A stretch of 64,000 nucleotides of DNA from Nonomuraea cavernae (GTDB taxonomy: Bacteria > Actinomycetota > Actinomycetes > Streptosporangiales > Streptosporangiaceae), in the NCBI RefSeq assembly GCF_014646355.1, contig NZ_BMNH01000003.1, forward strand, positions 372,001-436,000, in the 5' to 3' direction. This document shows, piece by piece, positions 1,369-29,195 of the stretch. Numbering within the stretch: position 1 is the stretch's first letter; each line of letters begins with the position of its first letter. The notes beneath the pieces are model-generated. The model was not told the DNA's origin and searched no databases. It worked only from the letters and a program-made list of their open reading frames with translations. The translations under genes were made by a program, and so were the position numbers.

Positions 1369-1437
1369 GGCAAGGACATTGCCGTGCCCGGGCGTCCGCG
1401 CCGGTCCGGAGCGCCTGCCTCGCCAGGCTTGCGCTCA
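1369..1437 (+). promoter_or_regulatory. Conserved two-box upstream element, copy 1
   Basis: Box 1 is GGCAAGGACAT at 1369-1379. Box 2 is CCAGGCTTGCGCTC, directly before the ATG at 1437. The distance from the first G of box 1 to the A of ATG is 68 nt. Four other genes in the window share both boxes at 68-69 nt. There is no Shine-Dalgarno sequence before this ATG, so box 2 could be the -10 region of a leaderless transcript. Promoter function is inferred from the conservation. Confidence 0.5.
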
Positions 1438-3206
1438 TGGCAGAAGCTCCTCCTTTTCCGCGTTCCCCGCTGCCCTCCGCCGCCTCCGCCGCCTCCGCGC
1501 CGGAGACCGGCGCGGACGGACCAGCGCCCCCCGGCCCGCGGCCGGCCTGGCAGCGGCTCACCACCTGGCTGCCCGCCGCGGCGGTGGCCGCCTGCGCCGG
1601 AGTGGTGCTCGGGTTCTACGGCGTCTCCGTCACGGACCTCGTCCTGTTCAGCGGCTACGTCACCCTGGGCCTCGCGCTGCCGGGCCTGCTGTGGGTCCGG
1701 CTCCTGTACCGGCGTCCCCGCGCGCTGCCCGAGGAGGTCGCGCTCGGGCTGACCTTCGGCTACGCGCTGGAAGTCCTCGCCTCCCTTCTCAGCCGCGCGG
1801 CCGGGGTGCCCCTGCTCGTCGCGGTCTGGCCGCTCGGCACGTACGCGCTCTTCCTGGCGGTCCCCCGCCTGCACCGGCACTGGAAGGGCGCGCCGCGCCC
1901 GGCCCCGACCTCGCTCCGCTGGTCGTGGGGGCTGGCGCTGGGCGTGATCTGCCTGATCGGATGGACCGCCGCCGACCGTTTCGGCGCCCCGCTCGCCCCG
2001 GCCGGCGTGCTGGACGGGCATGAATGGTCCATCCAGGCGCACCTCGCGGCGGCCGCGCTCACCGGAATCGAGCCGCTGGTCCTGTCCTCACGCCTGGCCA
2101 TGCTGCCCATACTGGGCACGCTCGTGGTCCTGCTCGGGGCCGTCGGCCGCCGCGTCATCGGCACGTGGGCGGGAGCGCTCGGCGCCCTGGCCGCCACCGT
2201 CTTCGTCGCGGCGCCCAGCCTCTACCGGGGGGCCGCCGGGGTGTTCGCCTGGGAGCCGGTGCAGTCGTGGTCGAGCCCGGCCCGTACCTTCGGCGCGCTG
2301 CTCTTCGCCTCGGTCGTGCTCGTGGTCGTCGACCTGCTCGGCGACCGGCGGCAGACCCGGGGCCGGTGGGTGTTCCTGGTGGTGATGCTCGTGGCGGTCA
2401 TGGGCGCGAAGGCCGCCTACCTGCCGCTGCTGGCCGGTGGGCTCGTGGCGGTCGTGGCGGTCGAGACGGTCAGGTGGTTCAGCCTGCCCCGGCGGGCCGT
2501 CGCCGCCCTCGGGCTGACCGGGGTGTGCCTGGCCGTCGCGCCGGCCGCCGGGATGTCGCCGGCGGCCGGCCCGGTCGTGCGGGAGACGCTGGGCCGGCTG
2601 ACCGGCCTGGGCGACGAGGCGCCCTCGCCGGCCGCGCTGCTCGGCGTCGCGCTGCTGCTCACGCTCTGCGGCGCGATCACCTGGTGCGGAGCGTTCGGGC
2701 TGGTGAGCCGGCCGCAACTGCTGCTGCGGCCCCCTGTGGTGCTGGTGCTCGGCATGAGCGCGACCGGTCTCCTGCTGGGGCTGCTGCTCGGCGATCGGCA
2801 CTTCCTCGAAGGGCCGTACCCGTACCTGGCGATGGTCGCGGTCTACGGGCTGCTCCTCGTCGTACGGCGGGCCCGGCTGCCGCTCAGGTCGGTGCTGCTC
2901 GCGGCCGGGACCGGGGTGCTGGCCGCCTACCTCGTCCGGGTGCTCTGCGACGTCGAGGTGCCGCTGGGCCGCGGTGAGGAGGTGGTGCTCCTCTACCTGC
3001 CGTACCTCGCCCTGATGGGCGTGGTGCTGCTGGTCGCGCTCGCGCTGCTCGCCGCCCGGACCGGCGGGCGGCGGACGTTCGCGCTGGTGATCTGCCTGGT
3101 CACCGCGGCCGGCACCCCCGCCGCGTGGTTCGCCGGCGTCACGCCCGGAATGGCGCCGAGCCCGCTGGTCGAGGTGCGAGAGGTGCCGGTCTCGGCGATC
3201 CCCTAG
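1437..3206 (+). CDS. Shortened paralogue of a polytopic GT-C-like membrane protein
   Basis: 589-residue protein with about a dozen hydrophobic helices. It aligns along its length with the proteins at 5780 (818 aa) and 29195 (778 aa), sharing segments such as RALPEEVALGLTFGYALEVL and VVMLVAVMGAKAAYLPLLAG. Two parts are missing. Around residue 190 it lacks the roughly 40-residue extracytoplasmic stretch with D-x-P-[YF]-H-L and Y-H-W-F, which in GT-C-type transferases is where the catalytic acid and sugar-lipid loop would be. It also ends just where the C-terminal soluble domain of the paralogues begins. The frame is intact, so it may be a truncated and possibly inactive relative or a regulatory variant. 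No RBS precedes the ATG; the conserved two-box element does. It ends 2 bp from the convergent dehydrogenase gene. Confidence 0.75.
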   Translation: MAEAPPFPRSPLPSAASAASAPETGADGPAPPGPRPAWQRLTTWLPAAAVAACAGVVLGFYGVSVTDLVLFSGYVTLGLALPGLLWVRLLYRRPRALPEEVALGLTFGYALEVLASLLSRAAGVPLLVAVWPLGTYALFLAVPRLHRHWKGAPRPAPTSLRWSWGLALGVICLIGWTAADRFGAPLAPAGVLDGHEWSIQAHLAAAALTGIEPLVLSSRLAMLPILGTLVVLLGAVGRRVIGTWAGALGALAATVFVAAPSLYRGAAGVFAWEPVQSWSSPARTFGALLFASVVLVVVDLLGDRRQTRGRWVFLVVMLVAVMGAKAAYLPLLAGGLVAVVAVETVRWFSLPRRAVAALGLTGVCLAVAPAAGMSPAAGPVVRETLGRLTGLGDEAPSPAALLGVALLLTLCGAITWCGAFGLVSRPQLLLRPPVVLVLGMSATGLLLGLLLGDRHFLEGPYPYLAMVAVYGLLLVVRRARLPLRSVLLAAGTGVLAAYLVRVLCDVEVPLGRGEEVVLLYLPYLALMGVVLLVALALLAARTGGRRTFALVICLVTAAGTPAAWFAGVTPGMAPSPLVEVREVPVSAIP

Positions 3207-3208
3207 GG

Positions 3209-4468
3209 TCAGAGCAGCTCGACGTTGGGCCCGCGGCAGCGGTTGCGGGTGTCGAAGACGAACGGGCTCACCTGCTCGATCAGCCCGTAGTCGAAGCAGT
3301 CGTGGTCGGTGAGGATCACCACCGCGTCCGCCTCGGCCAGCTCCCGGCGCGAGACCTCGATGATCTCGACGCCGGGAGGCAGCAGGAAGTGCTCCACGTG
3401 CGGATCGGCGGCCCGTACGTCGGCGCCCAGCTTGTGCAGCCCCCTCGCCACCTCGATCGCGGGCGATTCGCGGCAGTCGCCGGCGTTCTTCTTGTACGCC
3501 AGCCCGAGCACGACCACGCGGCTGCCGTTGACCGGCTTGCGACGCTGGTTCAGCGCCAGGGTCACCCGGTGCACGACGTGCTCGGGCATGTGGTCGTTGA
3601 TGTCGTTGGCCAGCTCCACGACCCGGAAGTTGTGCCCCAGGCTCCGCTTCACCTTCCACGACAGGTAGGACGGGTCGATCGGCAGGCAGTGCCCGCCGAC
3701 GCCGGGCCCCGGCGTGAAGCGCATGTACCCGAACGGCTTGGTGGAGGCCGCGTCGATGGCCTCCCAGACGTCGATGCCGAGCTGCTCGGCGAAGATGGAC
3801 AGCTCGTTGACCAGGGCGATGTTGACGTGCCTGAAGGTGTTCTCGAGCAGCTTGCACAGCTCGGCCACCTGGAGCGAGGAGACGGGGACGACCCGACTCA
3901 CGATCTGCCCGTAGAACGCCCCGACCTTGGACAGGGACGCCTCGTCGAGGCCGGACACGACCTTCGGGGTGTTCTCCAGGCGCCACTCGGGGTTGCCCGG
4001 GTCGATGCGCTCGGGGCTGTAGCCCAGGAAGAAGTCCTCCGGAGCCCGCAGCCCGGAGCCCTCCTCCAGCAGCGGCAGCAGATACTCCTCGGTGGTGCCC
4101 GGGTAGGTGGTCGACTCCAGGATCACGGTGGCGCCGGGGCGGAGCAACGGCGCGATCGACCGGCCGGACGAGGCGATGTACCTCAGATCGGGGGCGCCCT
4201 CGGCGAGCGGCGTCGGCACCGTGATCACGCACACGCCGAATCCCTCGGCGTCGGCGTAGTCAGAGCTGGCCAGGTAGCGGCCGCTGCGCAGCGCGGCGGC
4301 CAGCCGGTCGTCGGTGATGTCCTCGACGTAGGACTCGCAGGCGTTCAGCCGCTTGACGCGCCACTGGTCGACGTCGATTCCTACGACGTCGAACCCCGCC
4401 TCCACGGCCCGCATCGCCAGGGGCAGGCCGACATAGCCCTGGCCGACGACAACCAGTTTCTCTTCCAT
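3209..4468 (-). CDS. Nucleotide-sugar dehydrogenase (WbpA/UDP-GlcNAc 6-dehydrogenase type)
   Basis: 419-residue NAD-dependent four-electron dehydrogenase that converts a UDP-hexose or UDP-N-acetylhexosamine to the uronic acid. The N-terminal Rossmann motif is GQGYVGLP. The middle has ESTTYPGTT, FFLGYSPERIDPGN and ENTPKVVSG. The helix region CKLLENTFRHVNIALVNEL is followed by GGHCLPIDP, which carries the catalytic cysteine. The GPGVGGHCLPIDPSYLSWK context resembles the WbpA/TviB group more than UDP-glucose dehydrogenases, so UDP-GlcNAc is the likelier substrate. The start chosen is the ATG at 4468 with GGGAG 8 nt upstream; the frame runs further 5' but without family sequence. It is convergent with the membrane protein gene and 71 bp downstream of the methyltransferase on the same strand. 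It should supply uronic acid units for the polysaccharide made by this locus. Confidence 0.85.
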   Translation of the reverse strand: MEEKLVVVGQGYVGLPLAMRAVEAGFDVVGIDVDQWRVKRLNACESYVEDITDDRLAAALRSGRYLASSDYADAEGFGVCVITVPTPLAEGAPDLRYIASSGRSIAPLLRPGATVILESTTYPGTTEEYLLPLLEEGSGLRAPEDFFLGYSPERIDPGNPEWRLENTPKVVSGLDEASLSKVGAFYGQIVSRVVPVSSLQVAELCKLLENTFRHVNIALVNELSIFAEQLGIDVWEAIDAASTKPFGYMRFTPGPGVGGHCLPIDPSYLSWKVKRSLGHNFRVVELANDINDHMPEHVVHRVTLALNQRRKPVNGSRVVVLGLAYKKNAGDCRESPAIEVARGLHKLGADVRAADPHVEHFLLPPGVEIIEVSRRELAEADAVVILTDHDCFDYGLIEQVSPFVFDTRNRCRGPNVELL

Positions 4469-4539
4469 GCAAAGACTCCCGTTGGTTCGAGCTGAGACGC
4501 GCCCGGCCAGAGCCGGGCGCGTCAGTCCCATGGCCGGGG

Positions 4540-5523
4540 CTACTTGACGCCGCGCACCACGTAGAGGCCGCGATTGCGGTGGATCGACACCTGCTTCAAC
4601 CCGAGGTCCCGGGTCCACCGCTCCAGCCGCCGACGGGTCTGCGGCCTCTCGTAGCGCGGCGCGAACCAGTCGAAGGTGTCGAGCACCGACCAGTCACGGA
4701 CGGTCTGCCGGTCTCGCAGGCCCAGATGCCGATGGATGGCGACCGGGACCAGACGCGCCAGGCCCGGCCCCGCGACGGGGACGGAGGAGAGCGCCAGGGA
4801 CAGCGGCAGCAGCTTCGGCGCGGTCTTCTCCACCATGGCGTACAGCCGGGCCGGAGGAACGCGCTTGGTCAGCGGGCGCAACAGCTGCCGGGGGTGCAGG
4901 TAGGAGATCGGCGCCGCGTAGACGTCGACGCAGAAGCGGCCGCCGGGCCGCAGGTAGCGGAACAACGTCTTGAAGGTGCGCTCGACGTCGGGCGTGTGCT
5001 GGATGACGCCGAAGCAGAACAGGTAGTCGAAGGACTCCTCGGGCAGCGGCAGGTCGTAGATGCTGGCCTGCAGGAGCAGCAGGTTGGGGAAGTGGCCGTT
5101 GGAGGCGGCGTTGGCGTGGACCGCGCTGGAGATGTCGAACGACGTCACGACGGCGCCGGTCTCGCACAGCACCTCGGTGAACCGGCCGGCCCCGCTGCCG
5201 CATTCGAGCAGGCTTTTACCGCGCAACTCGGCGGCGGTCCAGCCGCTCGCGCTCATCACCCGGTCGCGGGAGATGGGCAGGCCGCAGTGGCTGTCGAGCT
5301 GGGTCAGCCGGTGCCGGTTCCACTGGTAGCCGAACCCCTTGGCGTAGTTGTCCTCGGGGACGAACCTCGGGATCCCCTTGTCCACGGGATAGGTGGCTGG
5401 GCAGACCTCACACGTCAGCTCGCCGTCGGCCACGCGGAGCGTGCCACGGCAACGGAGGCAATGGAGCTCGGAACACCGGGGACCCGGAGCGATGCCGGGA
5501 CGCGCCTGTTTCGGAAGACTCAT
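4540..5523 (-). CDS. SAM-dependent methyltransferase with N-terminal zinc ribbon
   Basis: 327-residue class I methyltransferase. Residues of about 20-55 carry two CxxC pairs (CLRC and CEVC) followed by YPVDKGIPRFV, a Trm112-like zinc ribbon often fused to methyltransferases of surface-polysaccharide and secondary-metabolite loci. The SAM-binding core starts with LLECGSGAGRFTEVL, then VTSFDIS, and has FDYLFCFGVIQHTPDVERTFKTL in the motif IV/V region. The C-terminal third is helical and basic. The start is the ATG at 5523; no strong RBS is visible. It probably shares a transcript with the dehydrogenase 71 bp downstream. The substrate cannot be told from sequence; a sugar or lipid-linked intermediate is likely from context. 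Confidence 0.75.
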   Translation of the reverse strand: MSLPKQARPGIAPGPRCSELHCLRCRGTLRVADGELTCEVCPATYPVDKGIPRFVPEDNYAKGFGYQWNRHRLTQLDSHCGLPISRDRVMSASGWTAAELRGKSLLECGSGAGRFTEVLCETGAVVTSFDISSAVHANAASNGHFPNLLLLQASIYDLPLPEESFDYLFCFGVIQHTPDVERTFKTLFRYLRPGGRFCVDVYAAPISYLHPRQLLRPLTKRVPPARLYAMVEKTAPKLLPLSLALSSVPVAGPGLARLVPVAIHRHLGLRDRQTVRDWSVLDTFDWFAPRYERPQTRRRLERWTRDLGLKQVSIHRNRGLYVVRGVK

Positions 5524-5710
5524 TCGGCTGGCCGATCAGTAGACGCAGTAGACGAAAAGGATGACCAACCCTCTGAGCGGCCAGATCCTCACACACCCCA
5601 CGTTACGCTCAGTGACGAATCTGACACGAGTAGGAGCTGAGGGTGTGTCGGGAAGCTCCGCGTGATCGCGCCGGGCGGCCCTGGACGGGCGTCTCCACCG
5701 GCCAAAGGCA

Positions 5711-5780
5711 GGTAAGGAACGTCACCCGGTTCGGCTGTCGGCGTCCGCCGGGCGCGCGGGCGTCGCCAGGCTTGCGCGCA
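5711..5780 (+). promoter_or_regulatory. Conserved two-box upstream element, copy 2
   Basis: Box 1 is the diverged GGTAAGGAAC at 5711-5720. Box 2 is GCCAGGCTTGCGCGC, directly before the ATG at 5780, nearly identical to copy 1. The span is 69 nt. The rest of the 5524-5779 intergenic stretch between the divergent methyltransferase and this gene shows no other clear signal. The match is weaker in box 1 than in copies 1, 3 and 4. Confidence 0.42.
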
Positions 5781-8236
5781 TGGCCGAAGCCCCGTCCACG
5801 CCCCGCGCCGCGCTGCCTTCCGCGACCTCGTCCCCGTTTCCTCCGCCCGAGCCGGAGTCCGGTGCGGGGCGCGCCGTCCCGCGCGGGCCGTTGGGGCGGC
5901 TGTCGGCCTGGCTGCCGGCGACGGCCGTGCTCTCCTGCGCCGTCGTCGTGCTCGGTCTGCACGGCGTCTCCGCCCGGGACATGAGCGTGTTCGGCCTGTA
6001 CGTCGCGCTGGGGCTCGCGCTGCCAGGTCTGTTGTGGGTCAGGCTCCTGCATCCGCGGGCGCGGACGCTGCCGGAGGAGCTGGCGCTGGGGGTGGCCCTC
6101 GGCTACGCGCTGGAGCTGCTGGCCTACCTCCCGGCCCGCGCGCTCGGAGCGCCGCTGCTGGTCGTGGCCTGGCCGCTCGGCACGTACGCGGTCTTCCTCG
6201 CCGTCCCCCGGCTGCGCCGGCACTGGAGGGCCGCCCGTCCGGCGCGCCGCACGCCGCTCGGGCGGGCCTGGTGCCTCGCGCTGATCGTGATCTGCCTCAT
6301 CCTGTGGAGCGCGGGCTTCTTCGCGGCCAACGCCCTGACCTGGCCCGCGATCGCCTCCTCGTACGTCGACCTGCCCTATCACCTGGCGCTGGCCGGCGAG
6401 CTGAGGCACCACGTGCCGCCCGTGGTGCCCACGGTCGCCGGCGAACCCCTCGCCTACCACTGGTTCGTCCACGCGCATCTCGCGGCGGCCAGTTGGGTGA
6501 CCGGGATCGAGCCTCTGGTGCTCCTCTACCGCCTGGCCCTGCTGCCCATGCTGGCCGCGCTCGCCGGGTGCCTCGCGGCGGTCGGCCGCCGGGTCACGGG
6601 CTCGTGGACGGGAGGGCTGATCGCCCTGGCGAGCACGGTCTTCCTCGCCGCGCCCGACCTGTACCTGGGCACGGCGGAGGTGTCCGCCTGGGGCGGCACG
6701 CAGTCGTGGACGAGCCCGAGCCAGACCTTCGGCGCCCTGCTGTTCGCCCCGGTCGTCCTGGTGATCGTCGATCTGCTCGGTGACCGGCGGCCGGCCCGGG
6801 GCCGGTGGGTGCTGCTGGCCGTCATGCTCATGGCGGTCATGGGGGCCAAGGCCACCTACCTGCCGGTGCTCGTGGCGGGGCTGGTGGCGGTCGTGGCGGT
6901 CGAGACGGCCAGGTGGTTCTCGCCGCCCCGGCGCGCTCTGGCCGCGCTGGGGCTGACCGTCGCCTGCCTGCTCGTCGCGCACGTCGTGCTGTTCGGCGGC
7001 GCGAGACAGGGCCTGGTGTTCGAGCCGCTGTCGCTCATGCGGGTGACCTGGCAGGACCTGACCGGCGCGGGCGGGGCGCCGGAGCAGGTCTCCTGGGCCG
7101 CCGCCCTCTCGGTCGCCGCGCTGTGCCTGCTGTGCGGGCTGATCACCTGGTGCGGGGTGCTGGGCCTGCTCGCGGGGCCACGACGGCTCCTGTCGCCACC
7201 GGTCGTGCTGGCGCTCGGCATGAACGCGGCCGCTCTCGCGGCGGTGTTCCTGCTCGGCCATCCGGGCCAGTCGCAGGGCTACTTCCCGCAGGCGTCCTAC
7301 CCCTACCTGGCGATGGTCGCGGTCGCCGGGGCGGCGTACGTCGTCAGGAGGGCGGGGGTGACGGTCCGGGCCATGGCCTGCGCGGCCGTCGCCGGGGTGC
7401 TCGCCGCCTGCGCCGTCCGGCTGCTCTGCGGCGTCCGGACCCCGCTGGGCTCCGGCCAGGACGGCCTCGCGCTGTGGCTGCCGTACGCCGTGCTGCTGGG
7501 CGTGGTGCTGCTGGTCGTCGCCGTGCTGCGCGTCGCGCGGCAGAGCGGGGTCCGTACGTGCGCGCTGGTGATGTGCATGGTCACGGCGGCCGGCACACCC
7601 GCCGCCTGGGTCGCGCGAGCCCTGCCCGGCACGTACGGGAGCCCGGTGGCCGGGCCGGCGCCGGCTCCGGACGTCCCCGAGGGGGGACTGGCGGCGGGGC
7701 GGTGGTTGCGTGACCACTCGGATCCCGGTGAGCTCGTCGCCACCAACGTGCACTGCCGCCTGGGATACGAGAGCCCGTGCGACAGCCGCGCCTTCTGGGC
7801 CGCCGCGCTGAGCGAGCGGCGGATGCTCGTCGAGGGGTGGGCCTACACGGCGACCAATCTCGACGGCCGCCGTCCGGGCGGGCGGGTGGTCACCCGCCCG
7901 TTCTGGGACCGCGACCGGCTGCGGGCCAACGACGCGGTCTTCGAGCGGCCGTCGGCGGGCGCGGTCCGGCGGCTGCGCGAGCGTTACGGGGTGCGGTGGC
8001 TGTTCGTGGACGAGCGCCGGACCGGACCCGGTTCCGCCCTGGAGACCTTCGCGGACCTGCGCTTCCGCACCGGCGACTTCGGCGTCTACCGGCTCTGGCC
8101 GGAGTCGCGGGCGCAGAGCGGCGCGGGCGGAGAGCGGTCCTTGTCTCGAACCGCACAAACTCTGGCAAGGACATCTCCCACTGCCGACGGCTCCCGTCCG
8201 TCCGGGCCGACCGGGTTGTCACACTTGCCCGCATGA
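5780..8236 (+). CDS. Large polytopic membrane protein, GT-C-like (paralogue 2)
   Basis: 818-residue integral membrane protein with about 12-13 helices and a C-terminal extracytoplasmic domain of about 190 residues. Near residue 195 a loop reads YVDLPYHLALAGELRHHVPP followed by VAGEPLAYHWFVHAH, the acidic-plus-His pattern seen in GT-C-type polyprenyl-phosphate-sugar transferases such as DUF2298/DUF6541 relatives. The soluble tail has LVATNVHC, RRMLVEGWAYTATN, RPFWDRDRLRANDAVFE and RERYGVRWLFVD, typical of lipid-linked sugar transferases of unknown specificity. It is a close paralogue of the protein at 29195. The start is the ATG at 5780 just after box 2, without RBS. The stop overlaps the start of the ice-binding gene (ATGA), so the two may be co-translated. 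The sugar transferred is unknown. Confidence 0.75.
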   Translation: MAEAPSTPRAALPSATSSPFPPPEPESGAGRAVPRGPLGRLSAWLPATAVLSCAVVVLGLHGVSARDMSVFGLYVALGLALPGLLWVRLLHPRARTLPEELALGVALGYALELLAYLPARALGAPLLVVAWPLGTYAVFLAVPRLRRHWRAARPARRTPLGRAWCLALIVICLILWSAGFFAANALTWPAIASSYVDLPYHLALAGELRHHVPPVVPTVAGEPLAYHWFVHAHLAAASWVTGIEPLVLLYRLALLPMLAALAGCLAAVGRRVTGSWTGGLIALASTVFLAAPDLYLGTAEVSAWGGTQSWTSPSQTFGALLFAPVVLVIVDLLGDRRPARGRWVLLAVMLMAVMGAKATYLPVLVAGLVAVVAVETARWFSPPRRALAALGLTVACLLVAHVVLFGGARQGLVFEPLSLMRVTWQDLTGAGGAPEQVSWAAALSVAALCLLCGLITWCGVLGLLAGPRRLLSPPVVLALGMNAAALAAVFLLGHPGQSQGYFPQASYPYLAMVAVAGAAYVVRRAGVTVRAMACAAVAGVLAACAVRLLCGVRTPLGSGQDGLALWLPYAVLLGVVLLVVAVLRVARQSGVRTCALVMCMVTAAGTPAAWVARALPGTYGSPVAGPAPAPDVPEGGLAAGRWLRDHSDPGELVATNVHCRLGYESPCDSRAFWAAALSERRMLVEGWAYTATNLDGRRPGGRVVTRPFWDRDRLRANDAVFERPSAGAVRRLRERYGVRWLFVDERRTGPGSALETFADLRFRTGDFGVYRLWPESRAQSGAGGERSLSRTAQTLARTSPTADGSRPSGPTGLSHLPA
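8164..8233 (+). promoter_or_regulatory. Conserved two-box upstream element, copy 3 (inside preceding gene)
   Basis: Box 1 is GGCAAGGACAT at 8164-8174. Box 2 is TCACACTTGCCCGC, directly before the ATG at 8233. The span is 69 nt. The element lies wholly inside the last codons of the preceding membrane-protein gene, in poorly conserved tail sequence, so its match to the intergenic copies is not explained by coding constraint. Confidence 0.48.
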
Positions 8237-9369: not shown

Positions 9370-9561
9370 CATTGACCATTCACGCCTGGATATTCCCCTA
9401 TATCCGGACACAGCGGATGACTTGGTTGTGGAATGTCGCCTTTTTGCTTCGCTCGTCATTGCCGTAAAGCATCGCCTTCCGGCTATTCGGGTATCTCCCG
9501 CTCGCGTCGTCCGAAAGTGGCGATTCCGCAGCGTTCCTCTTCGCCATGAAAGGGAGACCAC
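9370..9561. other. Intergenic stretch before the collagen-like gene
   Basis: 192 bp with clearly lower GC than the flanking genes. A small hairpin (GGATAT, loop TCCCCT, ATATCC at 9388-9405) lies just after the ice-binding gene and could be a weak terminator, although no T-run follows. No copy of the two-box element was found here. Confidence 0.4.
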
Positions 9562-10440: not shown

Positions 10441-10460
10441 GGCGCCGCACTCGATCGGCT

Positions 10461-20599: not shown

Positions 20600-20603
20600 G
20601 GCC

Positions 20604-21590
20604 ATGTTCTCCGTGATCATCCCCGTGTACCGCAACGCCGAGACCGTGCCGCTGCTGATCGAGGAGCTCACCGGCGTCGGCGCGACCGTCGCCGAGCGCT
20701 ACGGGCTGCCGGTGGAGTTCGTCTTCGTGGTCGACGGCAGCCCGGACGACAGCTTCGAACTGCTGAAGGCGGCGCTGCCGCAGGCGCCGTTCCGGTCGCA
20801 GCTGCTGCTGCACGCGCGCAACTTCGGATCGTTCGCGGCCATCCGCACCGGTCTGCGGGCCGCGCGGGGCGACTACTTCGCGGTGATGGCCGCGGACCTG
20901 CAGGAGCCGCCCGAGCTCCTGCTCAGCTTCCTCGACCGGCTGGTGAAGGACGAGTCGGACATCGTGGTGGGGGTTCGCGAGAGCCGCGACGACCCGGGGA
21001 TGTCGCGCCTGACGGCCAACCTGTTCTGGTCGTTCTACCGCCGGTTCGTGGTGCCGGAGATCCCGCAGGGCGGGGTGGACGTCTTCGGCTGCAACCAGCG
21101 CATCCGTGACGAGCTGCTGCGGCTCGACGAGGCCAACACCTCCCTGGTGGGGCTCGTCTACTGGCTCGGCTTCCGGCGCGGCGAGGTGCCGTACGACCGG
21201 CGCGAGCGGGCGCACGGCACGAGCACCTGGACGCTCCGCAAGAAGATCGACTATCTGCTGGACAGCGTCTTCGCCTTCACGGACCTGCCCATCCGGATCC
21301 TCACGGTGATGGGCCTGCTCGGGTTCGCGGTCGCCGGCTGCCTCGCCGTACTCGTGATCGTCATGCGCCTGACCGGGCAGATCGAGGCGGCCGGGTACGC
21401 GGCCACGATCGTGGTCATCACGTTCTTCGGCGCGCTCAACACCCTGGGCATCGGCTTCGTCGGCTCCTACGCCTGGCGCAGCTACGAGAACACCAAGAAA
21501 CGTCCCCTGGCCCTGGTGCGCACCGCCAGCACCTTCGAGGGGGCGGCCGAGACCACCGCCGATCTCCTCTGCACGGGCAGGCACGCGTGA
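20604..21590 (+). CDS. GT2 polyprenyl-phosphate glycosyltransferase (DPM1/GtrB-like)
   Basis: 328 residues. The GT-A domain has [37 protein letters not shown] with the DxSxD-like nucleotide motif, and [12 protein letters not shown] with the DxD-equivalent. The C-terminal 100 residues have two membrane helices ([21 protein letters not shown] and [22 protein letters not shown]), the architecture of GtrB/ArnC enzymes that make undecaprenyl-phosphate sugars. The GtrA protein encoded two genes on fits as the flippase for the product. The start ATG 20604 lies 4 bp after the aminotransferase stop; the stop overlaps the next GTG by 4 bp. Confidence 0.86.
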
Positions 21591-22534
21591 GCACGTACAT
21601 CCATCCGCGAGCGCTCTGCGAGAGCGCGGCCGTCGGCGACGGCACCCGGGTCTGGGCCTTCGCGCACATCCTGCCGGGCGCCCGGATCGGCGGCGACTGC
21701 AACATCTGCGACGGGGTCTTCGTCGAGAACGACGTCGTCGTGGGGGACCGCGTGACCGTCAAGTGCGGGGTGCAGCTCTGGGATGGGATCACCGTCGAGG
21801 ACGACGTCTTCATCGGCCCGAACACGACGTTCACCAACGATCCGTTCCCGCGCAGCAGGGTCCGTCCCGAGGCGTTCACCCGCACCGTCGTCCGGGCCGG
21901 CGCCTCCATCGGGGCGAACAGCACGATCCTGCCCGGCCTGGAGATCGGCACCGGCGCGATGGTGGGCGCGGGCGCGGTGGTGACCCGGTCCGTCCCGCCG
22001 AACGCGATCGTGGTCGGCAACCCGGCCCGCATCAAGGGCTACGTCGCCGATCCGGTGGACCCCGGTGTCCCGTTCGCGGCGGGCGGCGCGCCGTCGGCCG
22101 GCGGCACCGGCCTCGGCGTGGGGAAGGCGACCCTCCACGAACTCCGCGTCGCCAAGGACCTGCGGGGCGAGCTGTCGGTCGGCGAGTTCGAGCGCGAGCT
22201 GCCGTTCCGGCCGGCCCGCTACTTCCTGGTCTACAACGTGCCCAGCCGCGAGGTACGCGGCGAGCACGCGCACCGGCGGTGCGACCAGTTCCTGATCTGT
22301 GTGCGCGGCTCGTGCGGAGTCCTGCTGGACGACGGCCGCAACCGGCGGGAGATCAGCCTGGACCGGCCCAGCCGTGGCGTCTACATGCCGGCCATGATCT
22401 GGGGCACGCAGTACCGGTACTCGCCGGACGCCCTGCTGCTCGTGTTCGCCTCGCATCCCTACGACCCGGACGACTACATCCGCTCGTACGACGAGTTCCG
22501 CCGGGTCGTCTCGGGTGAGCCGGTGCGGGTGTGA
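21587..22534 (+). CDS. Bifunctional sugar N-acetyltransferase / 3,4-ketoisomerase (WxcM/FdtD-like)
   Basis: 315-residue fusion. Residues 1-160 are a left-handed beta-helix acyltransferase built from hexapeptide repeats ([30 protein letters not shown]), ending with [17 protein letters not shown], typical of C3-amino-sugar acetyltransferases. After a Gly/Ala-rich linker, residues of about 180-310 form a cupin of the FdtA/QdtA type ([56 protein letters not shown]), which isomerises dTDP-4-keto-6-deoxyglucose to the 3-keto sugar. Both activities on one chain are known from WxcM and FdtD enzymes. GTG start overlaps the GT2 stop; the stop overlaps the GtrA start. With RmlA, RmlB and the aminotransferase it completes dTDP-3-acetamido-3,6-dideoxyhexose synthesis; whether it is the gluco or galacto form cannot be read here. 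Confidence 0.87.
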
Positions 22535-22953
22535 ACGCGGCGCGCCGGAGGTTCGCCCGGTTCGTCGCCGGAGGAGCCACGAACACGGCCGTGACCCACG
22601 GTCTGTTCGTCGTCCTGACGTGGTCGATGCCGGCGCCGGTCGCCTACTCGGTGGCCTACGCGACCGGGATCGTGCTCGGCTACGTCATCAACACCGTCTT
22701 CGTGTTCCGCATCCGGGCCTCACTCAGGTCCGCCCTGCGCTTCCCGGTCGTGTACCTGGTCGCCTACCTGGTCGGCCTGGGACTCGTCGTGCTGCTGACC
22801 GGGGCCGGGCTCGCTCCCTGGCTCGCGATGCCGGTCGTGCTGGCCGTCAACGTCCCGCTCACGTACGTACTGACCCGCCACGTGCTCAGGGGGGCCCGAG
22901 CGGAGCGGGCGCGACCCGAGCCCGCCGGGCGGCCGCTCCGGGTCGCCCGCTGA
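22531..22953 (+). CDS. GtrA family membrane protein
   Basis: 140 residues with four helices, starting [22 protein letters not shown]. It is a GtrA-like (DPMS/PMT-associated) small membrane protein, proposed to flip undecaprenyl-phosphate-linked single sugars. It partners the GT2 enzyme at 20604. GTG start overlaps the previous stop by 4 bp. The basic C-terminal tail is cytoplasmic. Confidence 0.85.
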
Positions 22954-23098
22954 CCGAACCCTCTCGCGTTGGCAACATGTGGCACGCCCTTCGGCAAAGG
23001 GAAATGTGGCGGACGGCCCGGTAATTCGCACTCGCATACCGTCAGGTGGACAGGCGGTTCACGCGGCATGCACTCTTCGCGGAAGGGCTCAGTGAGCG

Positions 23099-24166
23099 GT
23101 GAAGGCACTTGTTCTGGCGGGCGGTAAGGGCACGAGACTGCGCCCGCTCACCCACACCTCGGCGAAGCAACTGGTCCCCATAGCCAACAAGCCGATCCTC
23201 TACTACGGGCTGGAGGCGATCCGCGACGCGGGCATCCGGAGCGTCGGCATCATCGTCGGCGACACGGCCCGCGAGGTGCGGGAGGCGGTGGGAGACGGTT
23301 CGCGCTTCGGCCTGGAGGTCACCTACATCCCGCAGGAGGAGCCGCTGGGGCTGGCGCACTGCGTGCTGATCGCCCGGGAGTTCCTCGGCGACGAGCCGTT
23401 CGTGATGTACCTCGGCGACAACTTCCTGGTGGACGGCATCGCCGACCTGGTGGACGCGTTCCGCGGGGCCGACCACGACGCCCAGATCCTGCTCACCAAG
23501 GTCGCCGAGCCGCGGTTCTACGGGGTCGCCGAGCTCGGGCCGGACGGCGAGATCGTCGCACTGGAGGAGAAGCCGGTCCATCCGCGCAGCGATCTCGCGA
23601 TCGTCGGCGTCTACACCTTCTCCCCGGCGATCCACGAGGCCGTCCGCGCGATCAGGCCGTCGGCGCGCGGCGAGCTGGAGATCACGGACGCGATCAGGTG
23701 GCTGGTCGACCACGGCTTCAGGGTGCACTCGCATCTGGTCAGCGGCTACTGGAAGGACACCGGCCGGCTGCAGGACATGCTGGAGTGCAACGAGATCGTC
23801 CTGCAGACCATCGAGCACGACGTCAGGGGCACCGTGGACGGGTTCTCCGAGATCAGCGGCCGCGTCGTCATCGCGCCCGGCGCCCTGGTCGAGAACTCCG
23901 TGATCAGGGGACCGGTCGTGCTCGGCGCCAACACCAAGATCAGCGGCTCCTGCATCGGGCCCTACACCTCGATCGGTGAGGGCTGCGTGCTGGAGGGCGC
24001 CGAGGTGGAGTACAGCATCATCCTGGGGGAGTCGTCCATCACGGGGGTCCGCGGGCTCACCAACTCGCTGATCGGCCGTAACGTCGAGGTCACCCGGTCC
24101 ATGGACTCTCCGCACGTCAACCAGCTCATGGTCGGAGACCACAGCAAAATTCAGGTGAGAGCATGA
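23099..24166 (+). CDS. rmlA: Glucose-1-phosphate thymidylyltransferase, long form
   Basis: 355 residues. It makes dTDP-glucose from glucose-1-phosphate and dTTP. The N-terminal signature is KALVLAGGKGTRLRPLT, then QLVPIANKPILYYGLE, IPQEEPLGLAHCVL, MYLGDNFLVDG and KVAEPRFYGVAEL. The last 110 residues add left-handed beta-helix repeats (GPVVLGANTKISGSCIGPYTSIGE), as in StrD/DesIII-type long enzymes of actinomycete gene clusters rather than the roughly 290-residue rhamnose RmlA. The GTG at 23099 is required by the family N-terminus; GGAAGGG lies 11 nt upstream, farther than usual. Its stop overlaps rmlB (ATGA). Confidence 0.9.
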   Translation: MKALVLAGGKGTRLRPLTHTSAKQLVPIANKPILYYGLEAIRDAGIRSVGIIVGDTAREVREAVGDGSRFGLEVTYIPQEEPLGLAHCVLIAREFLGDEPFVMYLGDNFLVDGIADLVDAFRGADHDAQILLTKVAEPRFYGVAELGPDGEIVALEEKPVHPRSDLAIVGVYTFSPAIHEAVRAIRPSARGELEITDAIRWLVDHGFRVHSHLVSGYWKDTGRLQDMLECNEIVLQTIEHDVRGTVDGFSEISGRVVIAPGALVENSVIRGPVVLGANTKISGSCIGPYTSIGEGCVLEGAEVEYSIILGESSITGVRGLTNSLIGRNVEVTRSMDSPHVNQLMVGDHSKIQVRA

Positions 24167-25140
24167 GAATCCTCGTGCCCGGCGGCGCCGGGTTCATCGG
24201 TTCGCACTACGTGCGGTCGTTGCTGTCCGGGCGCCTGCCCGGTTATGAGGACGTCCAGGTGACCGTGCTGGACAAACTCAGCTACGCCGGCAACCTGGCC
24301 AACCTGCTGCCGGTCGCCGGGCACCCCGGATACACCTTGGTCCACGGCGACATCACGGACGGCCGGCTGCTCGCCGACGTGGTGCCCGGCCACGACGTCG
24401 TCGTCAACTTCGCGGCCGAGACGCACGTCGACCGCTCGATCACCGGCCCCGGTGACTTCGTCCTGAGCAACGTCTACGGCACCCAGCGGCTGCTGCAGGC
24501 CGCGCTCGAAGCCGGCGTGCGGGCCGTCGTCCAGGTCTCGACCGACGAGGTGTACGGGTCGATCGACGAGGGGTCGTGGACCGAGGAGGAGCCGCTGCTG
24601 CCCAACTCGCCCTACTCGGCGGCCAAGGCGGGCGCCGACCTGCTCTGCCGGGCCTATCACCGGACCTACGGGCTGGACGTCCGGGTGACCCGGTGCACCA
24701 ACAACTATGGCCCGTACCAGTATCCCGAGAAGGTCATCCCGCTGTTCGTGACCAACCTGATCGACGGCCGGCCGGTGCCCCTGTACGGCGACGCCGGCAA
24801 CGTACGCGAGTGGTTGCACGTCGACGACCACTGCCGCGGCATCCAGCTCGTGCTGGAGAAGGGGTCGGCCGGAGAGGTCTACAACATCGGGGGCGGCGTC
24901 GAGCTGACCAACCGGGAGCTCACGCGGCGGCTGCTCGACGCGGTCGGCGCCGGCTGGGAGATGGTCGCGTACGTGGCCGACCGGCCCGGTCACGACCGGC
25001 GTTACTCCGTCGACAGCGGCAAGATCCGGGCGCTCGGCTACGAGCCCCAGGTCGGCTTCGACGAGGGGCTGGCCGAGGTGGTGCGCTGGTACCGGGAGAA
25101 CGAGGCGTGGTGGCGGCCGTTGAAGGAGGCGACGCTCTGA
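24163..25140 (+). CDS. rmlB: dTDP-glucose 4,6-dehydratase
   Basis: 325-residue extended SDR enzyme that makes dTDP-4-keto-6-deoxyglucose. It has the NAD motif GGAGFIGSHYVR, NFAAETHVDRSI, VSTDEVYGSIDEGSW, the YSAAK catalytic Tyr/Lys, TRCTNNYGPYQYPEKVIPLF and NVREWLHVDDHC, all diagnostic of RmlB. The ATG overlaps the rmlA stop, with AGGTGAG upstream. No rmlC or rmlD is present, so the product most likely goes to the 3-amino sugar route via the fused ketoisomerase rather than to rhamnose. It ends the + strand run at a bidirectional terminator. Confidence 0.93.
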   Translation: MRILVPGGAGFIGSHYVRSLLSGRLPGYEDVQVTVLDKLSYAGNLANLLPVAGHPGYTLVHGDITDGRLLADVVPGHDVVVNFAAETHVDRSITGPGDFVLSNVYGTQRLLQAALEAGVRAVVQVSTDEVYGSIDEGSWTEEEPLLPNSPYSAAKAGADLLCRAYHRTYGLDVRVTRCTNNYGPYQYPEKVIPLFVTNLIDGRPVPLYGDAGNVREWLHVDDHCRGIQLVLEKGSAGEVYNIGGGVELTNRELTRRLLDAVGAGWEMVAYVADRPGHDRRYSVDSGKIRALGYEPQVGFDEGLAEVVRWYRENEAWWRPLKEATL

Positions 25141-25190
25141 GCGTGGCCGGCGCCGCGAACCGGCTGTAGAGACCGGCTGTGGAGAAAGGG

Positions 25191-25227
25191 CTCACCCCGG
25201 CGATGATCGCCGGGGTGAGCCTTTTCC
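25191..25227. terminator. Bidirectional terminator between convergent genes
   Basis: Perfect 12-bp stem CTCACCCCGGCG / CGCCGGGGTGAG with loop ATGAT. It is followed by CCTTTTCC on the + strand and by CCCTTTCTCC on the - strand. It lies 50 bp after rmlB and 26 bp beyond the stop of the convergent DUF4082 gene. Confidence 0.9.
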
Positions 25228-25252
25228 GTGAGCCTGTTCCGTGCCGGTCCGG

Positions 25253-26683
25253 TCAGGGCGCGAACAGGACGTCCACCCAGTAGTTGCTGGACTGGAAACT
25301 GCTGGTCGGGAAGGTGTTCCCCGCACCGTACGTGTAGACGGCGTTCCCGCCCTCCGCGCCGTCGGCGAGGGCGATGAGCGGGCGGTTGACGTACTGGGTG
25401 GTGAAGTAGGGCCGGGTGATCGAGAACAGTCCGCTGGGAGTGTAATAAGAGGCGATATAGGTGGTGTTGGGGGCAATAGTGACAGGCGAGGGGAAGCTCA
25501 CCTGTTGCCAGCCCGTCGCCGTCTCGTTGGTGAAGGTCGCGCTGGCGAGGAGCTGCCCGTCGGCGGTCCACAGGCTTCCGATGTGCGGCCCGGTGTTCTG
25601 CGGGCCCTTGTAGAAGCGCACCCCCTGGATGGCCCCGCCGGTGGTCGCCTTGAACTTCACGCCCAGCGTCACGGCCCTGTTGTCGGTCGACTGGCCGGCC
25701 GGGACCGTCGAGACGTCCCAGAGGCTGTTCAACGGCACGAACACCACGTCCACCCAGTAGTTGCTGGCGTTGAAGGTGCTCGACGGGAAGGTGTTCGTCG
25801 CGCCGTAGGTGTAGACGTTGTTCCCGGTGCCCGGCCCGCTCGCGACCGCCGTGAGCGGGCCGTTCGTGTAGGGCGAGGCGAAGTACTGCCGTGACGCCGC
25901 GTAGTTTCCGGACGGTGTGTGGTAGGAGGCGATATAGGTGGTGCCGGCGGAGATGGTGACCGGAGACGAGAAGGTCACCTGTTGCCAGCCTGACGCGGTC
26001 TCGTTGGTGAAGACGGCGTCGGCGAGGAGTCGCCCGTCGCTGCTCCAGAGGCTTCCGGTGTGCGGCCCGGTGTTCAGCGAGCTCTTGTAGAACCGGACTC
26101 CCTGGACGACCCCGTTGGTCGACGCCCTGAAGTTCACGCCGAGCGTGATGGCCTTGTTGTCCGAGGAGATAGTCGACGGGATCGTCGAGTCGTCCCAGAG
26201 GCTGTTCGACGGCACGAAGACGGGGTCCACCCAGTAGTTGCTGGCGTTGAAGGTGTTGGCCGGGAAGGCGCTCGTCGCGCTGTAGAGGTAGACGCCGTTC
26301 CCGCCCGACGCCGCGTCGGCGGGGGCGATGAGCGGGCCGTTCTCATAGGGAGCGGTGAAGTACGCCCGGTTCACCGCGAAGTGGCCGGTCGGTGTGAAGT
26401 AGGAGGCGATGTAGGTGGTGCCGGCGGTGACGGCGACAGGTGTCGAGAAGTTCACCTGCTGCCATCCGCTGGCCGTCTCGTTGGTGAACGTCGCGGTCGC
26501 CAGGAGTTGCCCGGAGGTGCTCCACAGGCTGCCGGTGTGCGTTCCGGTGTTGAGCGCGCCCTTGTAGAACCTGACCCCCCGGATGAAGCCCGGGCTCGTG
26601 GCGCGGAACTTCACGCCCAGCTCCACCGACCTGTCGTCGCTGGTGGAGACGGTGGCCGGCACGGTCGTGTCCGGCCACAGGGT
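25253..26683 (-). repeat. Three 477-bp DUF4082 repeats (array B)
   Basis: Units are approximately 25253-25729, 25730-26206 and 26207-26683. The landmark TAGTTGCTGG occurs at 25281, 25758 and 26235, exactly 477 bp apart. This is the same period as array A at 10530-11483. Confidence 0.85.
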
Positions 26684-28780
26684 GCAGGGCGGACAGTCCC
26701 TGGCCACGGTGACCGTGCGCTGCGTCGGAGTGCCCTGGATGTTGCCGATGTCGTCGACCGCCCGGGTCCTGATCGTCACGGGTCCGGTGGTGCCGGGCGT
26801 CGTCCAGTTGAACGTCCAGTTGGTGCGGCCGACCGCCTGGAACCAGCGGTTGCCGCCGTCGACCGACACCTCGACCCCCGCGACGACACCGCCGCCCGTG
26901 TCGGCCGCCGTGCCCTGGATCTGGACGACCGAACCGGCGGACACGACGCCCGCGGCGGCGGGATTGTTGATCGCCGAGGTCGGGGGAGCGGTGTCCGTCG
27001 ACGGCGTCGTCGGCACCAGCCCCGGCTGGAGGCTGGCCGGCTGGGACCTCATGTCGGCGAACAGGTTGACGGTCGCCTGCTGCATGTCGATGTTCGTCGG
27101 TGTCCCGGGAAGGTCGTGGACCGCGTCCAGCCCCCAAGACCACTGGACGGTGCCCGAGCCGAAGACGAGCGCGTTGCTCGTGGGCTTGTAGAGCGTCAGG
27201 CTGTGCGTCGCGGTCCCGGCGCCGTAGGTGCTACCGAAGTCGAGCAGGAACAGATTGGTGGTCGACACGGTCGTCCGCGAGAACTTCACCAGTCCCGCCG
27301 GCGCGACTCCGTTGTCGGGCGCCTCGTCCCATTCGTAGCCGAGCGTGCCGAGGGGGAAGGTCACCGCCTGCCCCGGCTGCAGGCCGGCGATGGAGGTGTT
27401 GCGCCACAACCGCATGGAGCCGAACTCCGCGGGCACGCTGATGGCGTTGTACGAGTAGCCGTTCATCCGGAACAACGTGCCGGTGAGGGCGTTCTCCGGT
27501 CTGCCCCCGTCCGAAGGCGGGGAGAAACGCGGATCACGCCAGGTCCCCGTCCACTGCGGACTGGGGTCGATCTTGGCGTTGGCCAGCGTCTCCTTGTAAC
27601 AGACGAGGGTGCGGAAGGGAGTGGCCTGCCCGTCGATGCTCGGCTCCCACCGGGTCTTCCAGAAGATCTCGTTGCCGGTGAAGAAGGCGAGGTTCACCCC
27701 CGCGTTCCGGGCGGCGTAGGCGTTGTCCAGCATGTCGTTGGACCAGTATTCGTCGTGGCCGGACGAGATGAACGTCTGGTGGTTCAGCATCGCCGCGCCG
27801 CGGCTGGCCGTGTCGATGTTGCTGGTATAGCTGACGTCGTAGCCGTTGGCCTCGATCCAGCGGACCATCGGATACTCGGCTCCGAAGAACCTGCTGCGGG
27901 CGTCGAAGGGACGGTTGTAGCTGACCTTGAACGCCCGGTTCGCCGGGCTGCCGGTGTAGAGGCTGTTGCCGCCGTAGGTGTTGTAGGCCTGCCAGGTGGC
28001 GTCGGAGGTCTGCAGGAGGATCTCCGACTGGCGGGCGTCGTCCCGGACGACGAAGATCATCTGGCTCAGGCCGCTGATGCCGTCCTCGCGGATCAGGTTG
28101 GCGATGTAGACCCCCGAGACGGCGGTGCCCGGCACCGCCCAGGAGGCGGACACCGCCCAGTTGCCGCAGTCCACCAGCCCCGTCGACGCCTCGCTCACGC
28201 ATTCCGGTTGGAGCTGGGGGAGCGTGACGGAGGGCTGCACGGTCGCCATCTGGCGGGCGCCCAGGCCGCTGTAGTACCCGAGCCGGAATATCTCGATGCG
28301 GTAGTCGGTCGCGCCGGTGTTCACCTTGAACTGAACGGTCTGCCCCTTGTTCACGCTGATCTGCGTGGGATAGCCGGGGATGCCGCCCTGGGTGGGCACG
28401 TCCCACTGGCTCGGCGGGCTGCCCGGCAGGCTGTTCTCGATGCAGATGACGGAGGTCGGCGGGCATGCGGCTCTGCCCTTGCGGGTCCGGGCGGGCAGGT
28501 GCCGGCGCATGGTGCGAAAGGCCTCGGTGACGGTCTGCCGCTTCCCCGGCCGCATCCGGTCGACGGGGTCGTACGCGGAGGCGCGGCTCCAGGAGGGTGC
28601 TGCGTGCCGGTCGGCGGCGACGACCGTGGTCGGCGCCGGCGGCTGAGTGACCGGCGCCGGCGGAGCGTCGGCGCCCAGCAGCAGGCTGAGCGCGGACGCC
28701 GCGCCGCCGCCGAGCCCGAACAGCGCGGTGCGTAGCAGCCGCCGTGCCGGGAAACCGGTCTTCTGCCCGCTGTTCAGCAC
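25253..28780 (-). CDS. Secreted N,N-dimethylformamidase-like / triple DUF4082 protein
   Basis: 1175 residues. The GTG at 28780 has GGAGG 4 nt upstream and is preferred over a TTG nine codons earlier. A signal sequence with an RR pair (ARRLLRTALFGLGGG) leads. Residues of about 95-590 resemble the large subunit of N,N-dimethylformamidase: VKVNT..YRIEIFRLGYYSGLGAR, LLQTSDATWQAYNTYGGNSLY, FISSGHDEYWS, AFFTGNEIFWKTRW and LVCYKE. An Ig-like segment (APPTSAINNPAAAGVVSAG, GVEVSVDGGNRWFQAV) follows at about 595-690. Three DUF4082 modules make up the rest, each ending in a NYWVD motif. DUF4082 modules are also found in the protein at 10530. It is secreted and likely acts on or in the surface polysaccharide, but the chemistry is unknown. 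A two-box element copy ends 39 nt upstream. Confidence 0.82.
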   Translation of the reverse strand: MLNSGQKTGFPARRLLRTALFGLGGGAASALSLLLGADAPPAPVTQPPAPTTVVAADRHAAPSWSRASAYDPVDRMRPGKRQTVTEAFRTMRRHLPARTRKGRAACPPTSVICIENSLPGSPPSQWDVPTQGGIPGYPTQISVNKGQTVQFKVNTGATDYRIEIFRLGYYSGLGARQMATVQPSVTLPQLQPECVSEASTGLVDCGNWAVSASWAVPGTAVSGVYIANLIREDGISGLSQMIFVVRDDARQSEILLQTSDATWQAYNTYGGNSLYTGSPANRAFKVSYNRPFDARSRFFGAEYPMVRWIEANGYDVSYTSNIDTASRGAAMLNHQTFISSGHDEYWSNDMLDNAYAARNAGVNLAFFTGNEIFWKTRWEPSIDGQATPFRTLVCYKETLANAKIDPSPQWTGTWRDPRFSPPSDGGRPENALTGTLFRMNGYSYNAISVPAEFGSMRLWRNTSIAGLQPGQAVTFPLGTLGYEWDEAPDNGVAPAGLVKFSRTTVSTTNLFLLDFGSTYGAGTATHSLTLYKPTSNALVFGSGTVQWSWGLDAVHDLPGTPTNIDMQQATVNLFADMRSQPASLQPGLVPTTPSTDTAPPTSAINNPAAAGVVSAGSVVQIQGTAADTGGGVVAGVEVSVDGGNRWFQAVGRTNWTFNWTTPGTTGPVTIRTRAVDDIGNIQGTPTQRTVTVARDCPPCTLWPDTTVPATVSTSDDRSVELGVKFRATSPGFIRGVRFYKGALNTGTHTGSLWSTSGQLLATATFTNETASGWQQVNFSTPVAVTAGTTYIASYFTPTGHFAVNRAYFTAPYENGPLIAPADAASGGNGVYLYSATSAFPANTFNASNYWVDPVFVPSNSLWDDSTIPSTISSDNKAITLGVNFRASTNGVVQGVRFYKSSLNTGPHTGSLWSSDGRLLADAVFTNETASGWQQVTFSSPVTISAGTTYIASYHTPSGNYAASRQYFASPYTNGPLTAVASGPGTGNNVYTYGATNTFPSSTFNASNYWVDVVFVPLNSLWDVSTVPAGQSTDNRAVTLGVKFKATTGGAIQGVRFYKGPQNTGPHIGSLWTADGQLLASATFTNETATGWQQVSFPSPVTIAPNTTYIASYYTPSGLFSITRPYFTTQYVNRPLIALADGAEGGNAVYTYGAGNTFPTSSFQSSNYWVDVLFAP

Positions 28781-28818
28781 GTGGCCTCCGGCCGCATCCA
28801 GAGTCAAGCAATGTCAGA

Positions 28819-28888
28819 TGGCGGCAAGTTTGGCGATAACCCGTGGCAGGAGACGGCGTGGAAGGTGTCATACAGCGGTGTCTTTGCC
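28819..28888 (-). promoter_or_regulatory. Conserved two-box upstream element, copy 5
   Basis: On the - strand, box 1 reads GGCAAAGACACCGCTG from 28888, matching copy 4 (GGCAAGGACATCGCTG) at 14 of 16 bases. Box 2 reads GCCAAACTTGCCGCC and ends just before an A at 28819, 69 nt from the first base of box 1. Here that A is not the start codon but lies 39 nt upstream of an RBS-led GTG. This suggests the common A is the transcription start in all five copies. Confidence 0.5.
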
Positions 28889-29006
28889 AATGCTTTCTTA
28901 CGACCAAGCCCACAAGTAGCGCGATATCGTCGTTAATACCGATTACTGGTGGAGGTGAAATCGGATGGTCGGTTTTCCGGGCGATACGCGGGTGGCGTGA
29001 CCAGAT

Positions 29007-29122
29007 CGCCGCTGCCGGAACAACCGCCCGGAACAACCGCCCGGAACAATCGCCGCTGCCGGAACAATCCGCGCTGCGGAACAGTCGGTGCTGACGGAAC
29101 AGTCGGTGCTGACGGAACAAAG
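29007..29122. repeat. GGAACA tandem repeat array, 13- and 18-bp units
   Basis: Seven GGAACA cores in a row. The first spacings are 13 bp (CCGGAACAACCGC units), the later ones about 18 bp (CGGAACAGTCGGTGCTGA units, two of them identical). The array stops 4 bp before box 1 of copy 4. Direct, not palindromic, and without spacers, so not a CRISPR. It may be a binding array for a regulator or a slippage product. Confidence 0.75.
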
Positions 29123-29126
29123 GAAA

Positions 29127-29195
29127 GGCAAGGACATCGCTGAGCGCCCGGTGTTCGCCCCGTCACGGTCGCCGGAATTGCCAGACTCGCGCTCA
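29127..29195 (+). promoter_or_regulatory. Conserved two-box upstream element, copy 4
   Basis: Box 1 is GGCAAGGACAT at 29127-29137. Box 2 is GCCAGACTCGCGCTC, directly before the ATG at 29195. The span is 68 nt. The tandem GGAACA array lies directly upstream. No RBS precedes the ATG. Confidence 0.5.

Follow-up and report, generated by a model that had tools for sequence, protein, structure and literature searches.

What is the function of a two-box sequence element that stands in front of five surface-related genes of Nonomuraea cavernae, and what kind of factor reads it? The genes belong to one cell-surface sugar-polymer locus in the window analysed here, a 64,000-nt stretch of contig NZ_BMNH01000003.1 (assembly GCF_014646355.1, positions 372,001 to 436,000, forward strand). 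An earlier note on this stretch had described five copies of the element and had suggested that a dedicated sigma factor or activator uses them to control a cell-coat regulon. Our reading, to which we assign a probability of about 0.65, is that the elements are activator-dependent, sigma70-type leaderless promoters that serve this one locus.

The layout given in that note is borne out by direct reading of the window, i.e., the number and positions of the copies, their span of 68-69 nt from the start of the first box (box 1) to an A, and the genes that follow, which encode three membrane paralogues, an Ice_binding/Big_3_5 protein and a DMFA2_C/DUF4082 protein (Table 1). Four of the five elements finish on an ATG that has no ribosome-binding site (RBS) and opens a long open reading frame (ORF), while the fifth ends 39 nt upstream of a GTG preceded by GGAGG. 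Element 3 is the copy said to lie inside a coding region; it is found within the 3' end of the preceding ORF, the stop of which overlaps the ATG at the end of the element. Beyond what the earlier note describes, the element also has a further repeat upstream and a GTCC patch, and it is conserved outside the genus (see below).

An independent test profile was built from sequence only, using 15 elements from six other Nonomuraea genomes (G001, G009, G014, G022, G026 and G027) and none from the genome under study. Its five best matches in the window are the five copies, with E-values between 2.4e-19 and 8.1e-5, and the next match has an E-value of 0.025. When a 20-element profile that includes the five copies is applied to the complete 8.1-Mb genome, these five are found at E <= 8.6e-10 and no sixth copy shows, the next match having an E-value of 0.015 (150 of 30301 first-look candidates were fully scored). 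In the six training genomes the 15 training elements are found at E <= 8.2e-10, followed by a match at 0.002. Strong copies in N. cavernae were thus found in this locus alone. The best match below the threshold (L080) resembles coding DNA.

The same cannot be said of the parts of the element taken singly. The word GGCAAGGACAT occurs 21 times in the genome, compared to 2 occurrences for a reversed control, and was rejected as a diagnostic word; three of its copies are the exact copies in the window, 12 lie in a clearly coding-like frame (GGC AAG GAC) and six are ambiguous by the frame test. Judged by eye, box 2 follows only the three window copies. The upstream operator alone shows no genome-wide excess (82 sites with at most three mismatches versus 100 for the reversed control), and a site with two mismatches (L222) appears by eye to have no box 2. 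A genome-wide cell-coat regulon is therefore not supported, all five copies found being in one locus. A known structured RNA is not supported either, since positions 1000-32000 of the window yield 0 Rfam matches at the gathering score.

The anatomy of the element was derived from 85 aligned rows, which collapsed to 69 non-redundant elements; ten low scorers were dropped and the remaining 59 were profiled. Read 5' to 3', the element consists of MAAGGA (R1), GGCAAGRACA 10 bp further on (R2, which is box 1), a weaker GTCC, the -10-like box 2 with the sequence TCGYCAGRCTTGC, which directly abuts the ATG, and CATG. The boxes are near-invariant among the 59 elements while the spacers drift, and box 1 and box 2 are 50-53 nt apart. 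If the A is taken as +1, the centres of R1, R2 and GTCC fall at -73, -63 and -41.5, all on one helical face. R2 and box 2 guided the placement of the rows, so that their conservation is in part a product of the procedure. R1, GTCC and CATG were included in the search profile but played no role in the placement, and they are conserved at 0.96 (A), 0.64 (T) and 0.85 (A), respectively. R1 and R2 form a tandem direct repeat. The mean match to CAAGGA is 5.25 out of 6 at R2, 3.97 at 10 bp upstream of it, 3.25 at 11 bp and mostly 1-2 elsewhere, so that the period is 10 and sometimes 11 bp, as in operators of the OmpR/PhoB type. At the place of a -35, 16-18 nt before the -10, the 59-element profile has no conserved hexamer, which would suit a promoter that depends on an activator. 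We set aside a possible palindrome in GGCAAGNACATCGCC because its downstream half is weakly conserved.

The GTCC patch invites a different parsing. Promoters read by extracytoplasmic function (ECF) sigma factors contain a conserved AAC in the -35 and CGTC in the -10, at a fixed distance of 16-17 nt, and many of the elements have a moderately conserved YGTCC 15-16 nt behind RAC. GGCAAGRAC would then be the -35, YGTCC the -10, the start would lie about 34 nt upstream of the ATG and box 2 would be an element of the leader. We consider this quite improbable: the patch is much weaker than box 2, alignment to box 2 brings it out more sharply than alignment to box 1 does (0.89 versus 0.64 bits at the T), and by eye its distance from AAC is not fixed. 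This parsing would also fail to account for box 2 and its distance from the ATG, and for the elements that lack an ATG.

For box 2, the rest of the same DNA provides a reference. Once the elements are taken out and near-copies are merged, TANNNT before 2458 candidate ATGs peaks at -13 and -12 (6 and 5 occurrences, versus 0-3 elsewhere), which we regard as a small yet distinct signature of ordinary leaderless promoters. The CANRCT of box 2 is located at -13, coinciding with this peak, and the conserved A and T at its second and sixth bases are placed for a +1 at the start codon. The first base of the hexamer is mostly C instead of the T of TANNNT, but natural variants with a canonical hexamer exist, namely TACGCT at -13 in L159 and TAGCTT one base later, at -12, in L190. 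Moreover, box 2 is retained where no ATG follows, as in element 5 of the window and in L178, in front of a methyltransferase gene, which argues that it is not a start-codon context or translation signal. Ice-binding genes of Microbispora have weaker box-2 matches, below the profile cut, and start roughly 80-100 nt downstream, behind AGGAGG in L171 and L175. Box 2 is most likely a -10, and because it sits at the TANNNT peak, leaderless transcription from the A of the ATG appears likely; the start that the earlier note had placed at this A thus gains support as a probable one.

These observations also bear on the choice between sigma factor and activator. A dedicated alternative sigma factor that reads box 2, and perhaps other boxes as well, would fit the departure from TANNNT, the lack of CANRCT enrichment before other ATGs, the missing -35 and the finding of the full element at only one locus of the genome; a possible candidate is encoded roughly 30 kb away from this locus, by an ORF that contains Sigma70_r2 and Sigma70_r4_2 domains. 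We nonetheless hold this explanation to be unlikely. The conserved A and T and their spacing to +1 match those of leaderless TANNNT boxes in the same DNA, some elements have the canonical hexamer, box 1 lies about 51 nt from box 2 and is too far upstream to serve as a -35, and the conserved gene families of the locus include no recognised sigma gene. In the pair originally proposed, it is the activator that is favoured, as the upstream repeats resemble an activator site; a dedicated sigma factor is not required for a box at the leaderless -10 position.

The arrangement is shared by relatives. Orthologues of the membrane protein in the six training genomes have it upstream, and by eye it is missing from eight more distant homologues (43-47 % identical). 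Searches of 54 Nonomuraea genomes and of 250 family genomes are free of bias from fetching loci through the membrane protein; in each genome they scored only the top 82 and the top 17 first-look candidates, respectively, and hence their counts are lower bounds and their absences are not firm. The former yielded 31 elements at E <= 1e-4 in 12 genomes (the own and the six training genomes included), 11 of them from five genomes outside the training set. By local comparison, 23 precede membrane protein genes, four ice-binding, three DUF4082 and one a DegT-like aminotransferase gene, with a short ORF intervening in two of the DUF4082 cases and in the DegT-like case. The latter found matches in 39 genomes (the own genome included) and 8 of 68 genera, eight of the genomes being from Nonomuraea and 31 from other genera. 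Its 22 new loci comprise 19 elements before membrane proteins, one before a DUF4082 gene, one before a family 4 glycosyltransferase (GT4) gene and one near a contig end whose gene is unassigned; several of these loci, though found by a protein-independent whole-genome search, are the same strains, with identical sequence, as loci fetched by protein. The shared cis-element with its fixed span before surface-related genes, as described for the window, is thus borne out across several genera.

With an alignment of the membrane protein, 64 named loci were fetched, a single-protein query having yielded none. They extend the element to Streptosporangium, Microbispora, Microtetraspora, Sphaerisporangium, Sphaerimonospora, Planobispora and Planomonospora. 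The element is present at the fetched membrane gene in 40 of the 53 loci from Streptosporangiaceae and in 0 of the 11 from outside the family (Kribbella, Actinoplanes, Chloroflexi and others). In three Chloroflexi metagenome-assembled genomes (L196, L197 and L201) the relatives of the membrane protein are 37-38 % identical and nearly full-length, and the element is absent. An element-bearing copy of the locus in Sphaerisporangium sp. TRM90804 (L186) is on a record titled plasmid.

Among the 59 profiled elements, 49 precede membrane proteins, 48 of these with an ORF of at least 150 aa beginning within 1 nt of the A. The other ten precede genes for DUF4082 (3), ice-binding (2), GT4 (2), DegT (1), methyltransferase (1) and, doubtfully, family 2 glycosyltransferase (GT2; 1) proteins. 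The element has so far been seen before six gene families, or seven if the doubtful case is counted, and at some of the junctions there is a tiny leaderless ORF. In Microtetraspora and one Nonomuraea, such an ORF (8, 16 or 46 codons) is followed by a GT4 or DegT-like gene, which may possibly reflect promoter capture or a leader peptide. One could suspect that the boxes merely survive from gene starts that were duplicated and copied around the locus, and by eye the tiny ORFs in L139, L154 and L165 do begin like some membrane-protein N-termini. Shared descent without regulation is very improbable in our view, given that boxes and spacing are kept across genera where spacers have diverged. Copying may be how the element spread, yet the boxes look selected. 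A more far-reaching picture, possible if speculative, is a portable cassette of promoter plus start codon, copied among unrelated genes of one surface-glycan locus and read by a dedicated, unlinked factor that would have no targets in a genome other than these few copies.

We infer the transcription start, the class of sigma factor and activation rather than repression, and the proposed mechanism is as follows. Each element would act as a sigma70-type promoter without a -35 that depends on an activator and yields leaderless mRNA. Box 2 (CANRCT) would be a slightly off-consensus -10 with a C in front instead of the canonical TANNNT. With the A of the ATG as +1, translation would begin from the 5' end without an RBS, and where there is no ATG a short leader with an RBS would take its place. 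The AAGGA/GGCAAGRACA tandem and GTCC would probably form the binding site of a single regulator, dimeric or oligomeric and perhaps of the OmpR/PhoB-like winged helix kind, which would stand in for the absent -35 contact. Membrane proteins, ice-binding protein and DUF4082 surface protein of one exopolysaccharide-type locus would thereby be co-expressed in Streptosporangiaceae.

Several observations weigh against this model. Outside the elements CANRCT has no peak at -13 before ATGs (7 occurrences, with up to 7 at other offsets) and appears peculiar to this element class rather than a general -10 in the same DNA; this fits a weak activator-dependent -10 and equally another sigma factor, and it lowered our probability from 0.70 to 0.65. 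At 13 of the 53 family loci no element can be recognised at the gene used for fetching; two of these loci begin on or close to the edge of a contig or locus. The dominance of membrane proteins in the 59-element tally is partly a matter of ascertainment because loci were fetched through that protein. The regulator could be a repressor, which is less likely since the repeats lie far upstream of the -10. Finally, the families of the locus that were scanned include no recognised conserved regulator gene, an odd result if the activator is specific to this locus.

The scan for a regulator covered families common to at least three loci (those with a member in the window mostly against Pfam, plus ten others), with several small or short families outside it, and found no DNA-binding regulator among the scanned locus proteins. 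Ten chosen ORFs from the 40 kb to the left and 20 kb to the right of the window include three TetR-type, one LacI-type and one sigma-70-like protein, and a GntR-type protein is encoded inside the window; these neighbours were set aside since a direct-repeat operator does not point to them. Because no conserved regulator is recognised in the locus and the operator is not enriched elsewhere, the evidence points to an unlinked and rather dedicated regulator.

Table 1. Coordinates of elements, genes and other features (window positions unless a locus is named; E-values are from the 15-element profile without the own genome; +1 positions are predicted).
Feature	Position	Strand	Content	Box 1 start to A (nt)	+1	E
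Element 1	1362..1439	+	R1 AAGGA 1362-1366; R2 GGCAAGGACAT 1369-1379; GTCC 1394-1397; -10-like CAGGCT 1424-1429	68	1437 (A of ATG)	2.4e-19
Element 2	5704..5782	+	R2 GGTAAGGAACG from 5711; GTCG 5737-5740; CAGGCT 5767-5772	69	5780	1.6e-10
Element 3	8156..8235	+	R2 8164-8174; CACACT 8220-8225; GTCC patch not conserved	69	8233	1e-8
Element 4	29115..29197	+	R1 AAGGA 29120-29124; R2 GGCAAGGACAT 29127-29137; CAGACT 29182-29187	68	29195	1.9e-12
Element 5	28818..28898	-	R1 AAG 28895-28893; R2 GGCAAAGACAC 28888-28878; CAAACT 28832-28827	69	28819 (CATC, no ATG)	8.1e-5
Polytopic membrane protein, shortened paralogue	1437..3206	+	589 aa; predicted leaderless start
Polytopic membrane protein paralogue	5780..8236	+	818 aa; predicted leaderless start; C-terminal extension spans element 3
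Ice-binding-like protein	8233..9369	+	378 aa; Ice_binding + Big_3_5; predicted leaderless start
DUF4082 protein	25253..28780	-	DMFA2_C + Big_7 + 3x DUF4082; likely start GTG at 28780 with GGAGG
Polytopic membrane protein paralogue	29195..31531	+	778 aa; predicted leaderless start
Surrounding polysaccharide-type locus	3209..38788		No further elements; UDP-sugar dehydrogenase, methyltransferase, second Ice_binding/DUF4082 protein, Asn synthase, GT4s, flippase-like protein, DegT aminotransferase, GT2, FdtA, GtrA, nucleotidyltransferase, epimerases, Wzz/AAA_31
Second Ice_binding + DUF4082 protein	10530-12626	-	No element upstream
Tandem array before element 1	1254-1345		13-14 bp units
Tandem array before element 4	29005-29120		13-18 bp units
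GntR-type protein	50807-52267
Sigma-70-like ORF	L212 5306-6889	-	Sigma70_r2 + Sigma70_r4_2, long C-terminal part; 5.3 kb past window end
Tiny-ORF element	L154 8201-8283	-	ORF of 8 codons
Tiny-ORF element	L165 6364-6445	-	ORF of 16 codons
Tiny-ORF element	L138 1501-1580	-	ORF of 46 codons

The neighbours of the five genes include sugar-nucleotide enzymes, GT2 and GT4 glycosyltransferases, a flippase-like protein, GtrA and Wzz, and by this domain content the locus is of the exopolysaccharide type. The three membrane paralogues have about 14-15 hydrophobic segments each and no match in Pfam or NCBIfam, and a sequence search of the PDB with the membrane protein gives no relative at E <= 1; a GT-C-like glycosyltransferase label for them would be a guess from appearance. 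The shortest paralogue is degenerate: compared to its relatives it lacks the larger part of the region that holds the conserved D-x-P-[FY]-H motif, and roughly one fifth of the protein is missing at the C-terminus. It nonetheless has the best-scoring element. The paralogue upstream of the ice-binding gene runs about 45 residues beyond the usual C-terminus of its relatives, through the putative promoter of that gene. Short tandem arrays of the GAAGTGACGCCTG and CCGGAACAACCGC types stop 23 nt ahead of box 1 in element 1 and 6 nt ahead of it in element 4.

The kind of device is known; this member of it has no name, and we found no description of the motif in the open-licence papers searched. Leaderless promoters of actinobacteria have a -10 placed for +1 at the first base of the start codon and no RBS. 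The elements share both properties in their predicted layout and differ in being tied to a conserved upstream operator and to one locus. OmpR/PhoB-type operators and those of Streptomyces antibiotic regulatory proteins (SARPs) are head-to-tail repeats of 10-11 bp, usually next to the -10 or -35; the repeats seen here likewise recur at about one helical turn but are centred near -68, with the weak patch near -41.5. Leaderless actinobacterial promoters have been described, for example, in Mycobacterium tuberculosis (PMC3898074, PMC4633059). Another direct repeat upstream of promoters in a sporulating actinomycete is the box of TcrA, an orphan response regulator of sporangium formation in Actinoplanes missouriensis, given as nnGCA(A/C)CCG-n4-GCA(A/C)CCGn with an 11-bp period (PMC12691653). 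TcrA activates and acts on sporangium genes. The present AAGGA/GGCAAGRACA repeat has mostly a 10-bp period and does not match the TcrA consensus. The exopolysaccharide clusters wps-1, wps-2, wps-3 and gsf of A. missouriensis are reportedly outside TcrA control (PMC13390465).

If our reading is correct, an anonymous group of genes for giant membrane, ice-binding and DUF4082/DMFA2 proteins and glycosyltransferases would become one defined regulon in several genera of Streptosporangiaceae. The operator would provide a precise handle for fishing out the regulator, and the elements a natural series for studying how a leaderless promoter functions without a -35. The ice-binding-like proteins of these soil actinomycetes would belong to a polysaccharide coat programme rather than to cold adaptation. 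Should the tentative cassette model hold, the spore or hyphal coat would be under a cryptic master switch common to the family, namely the dedicated factor.

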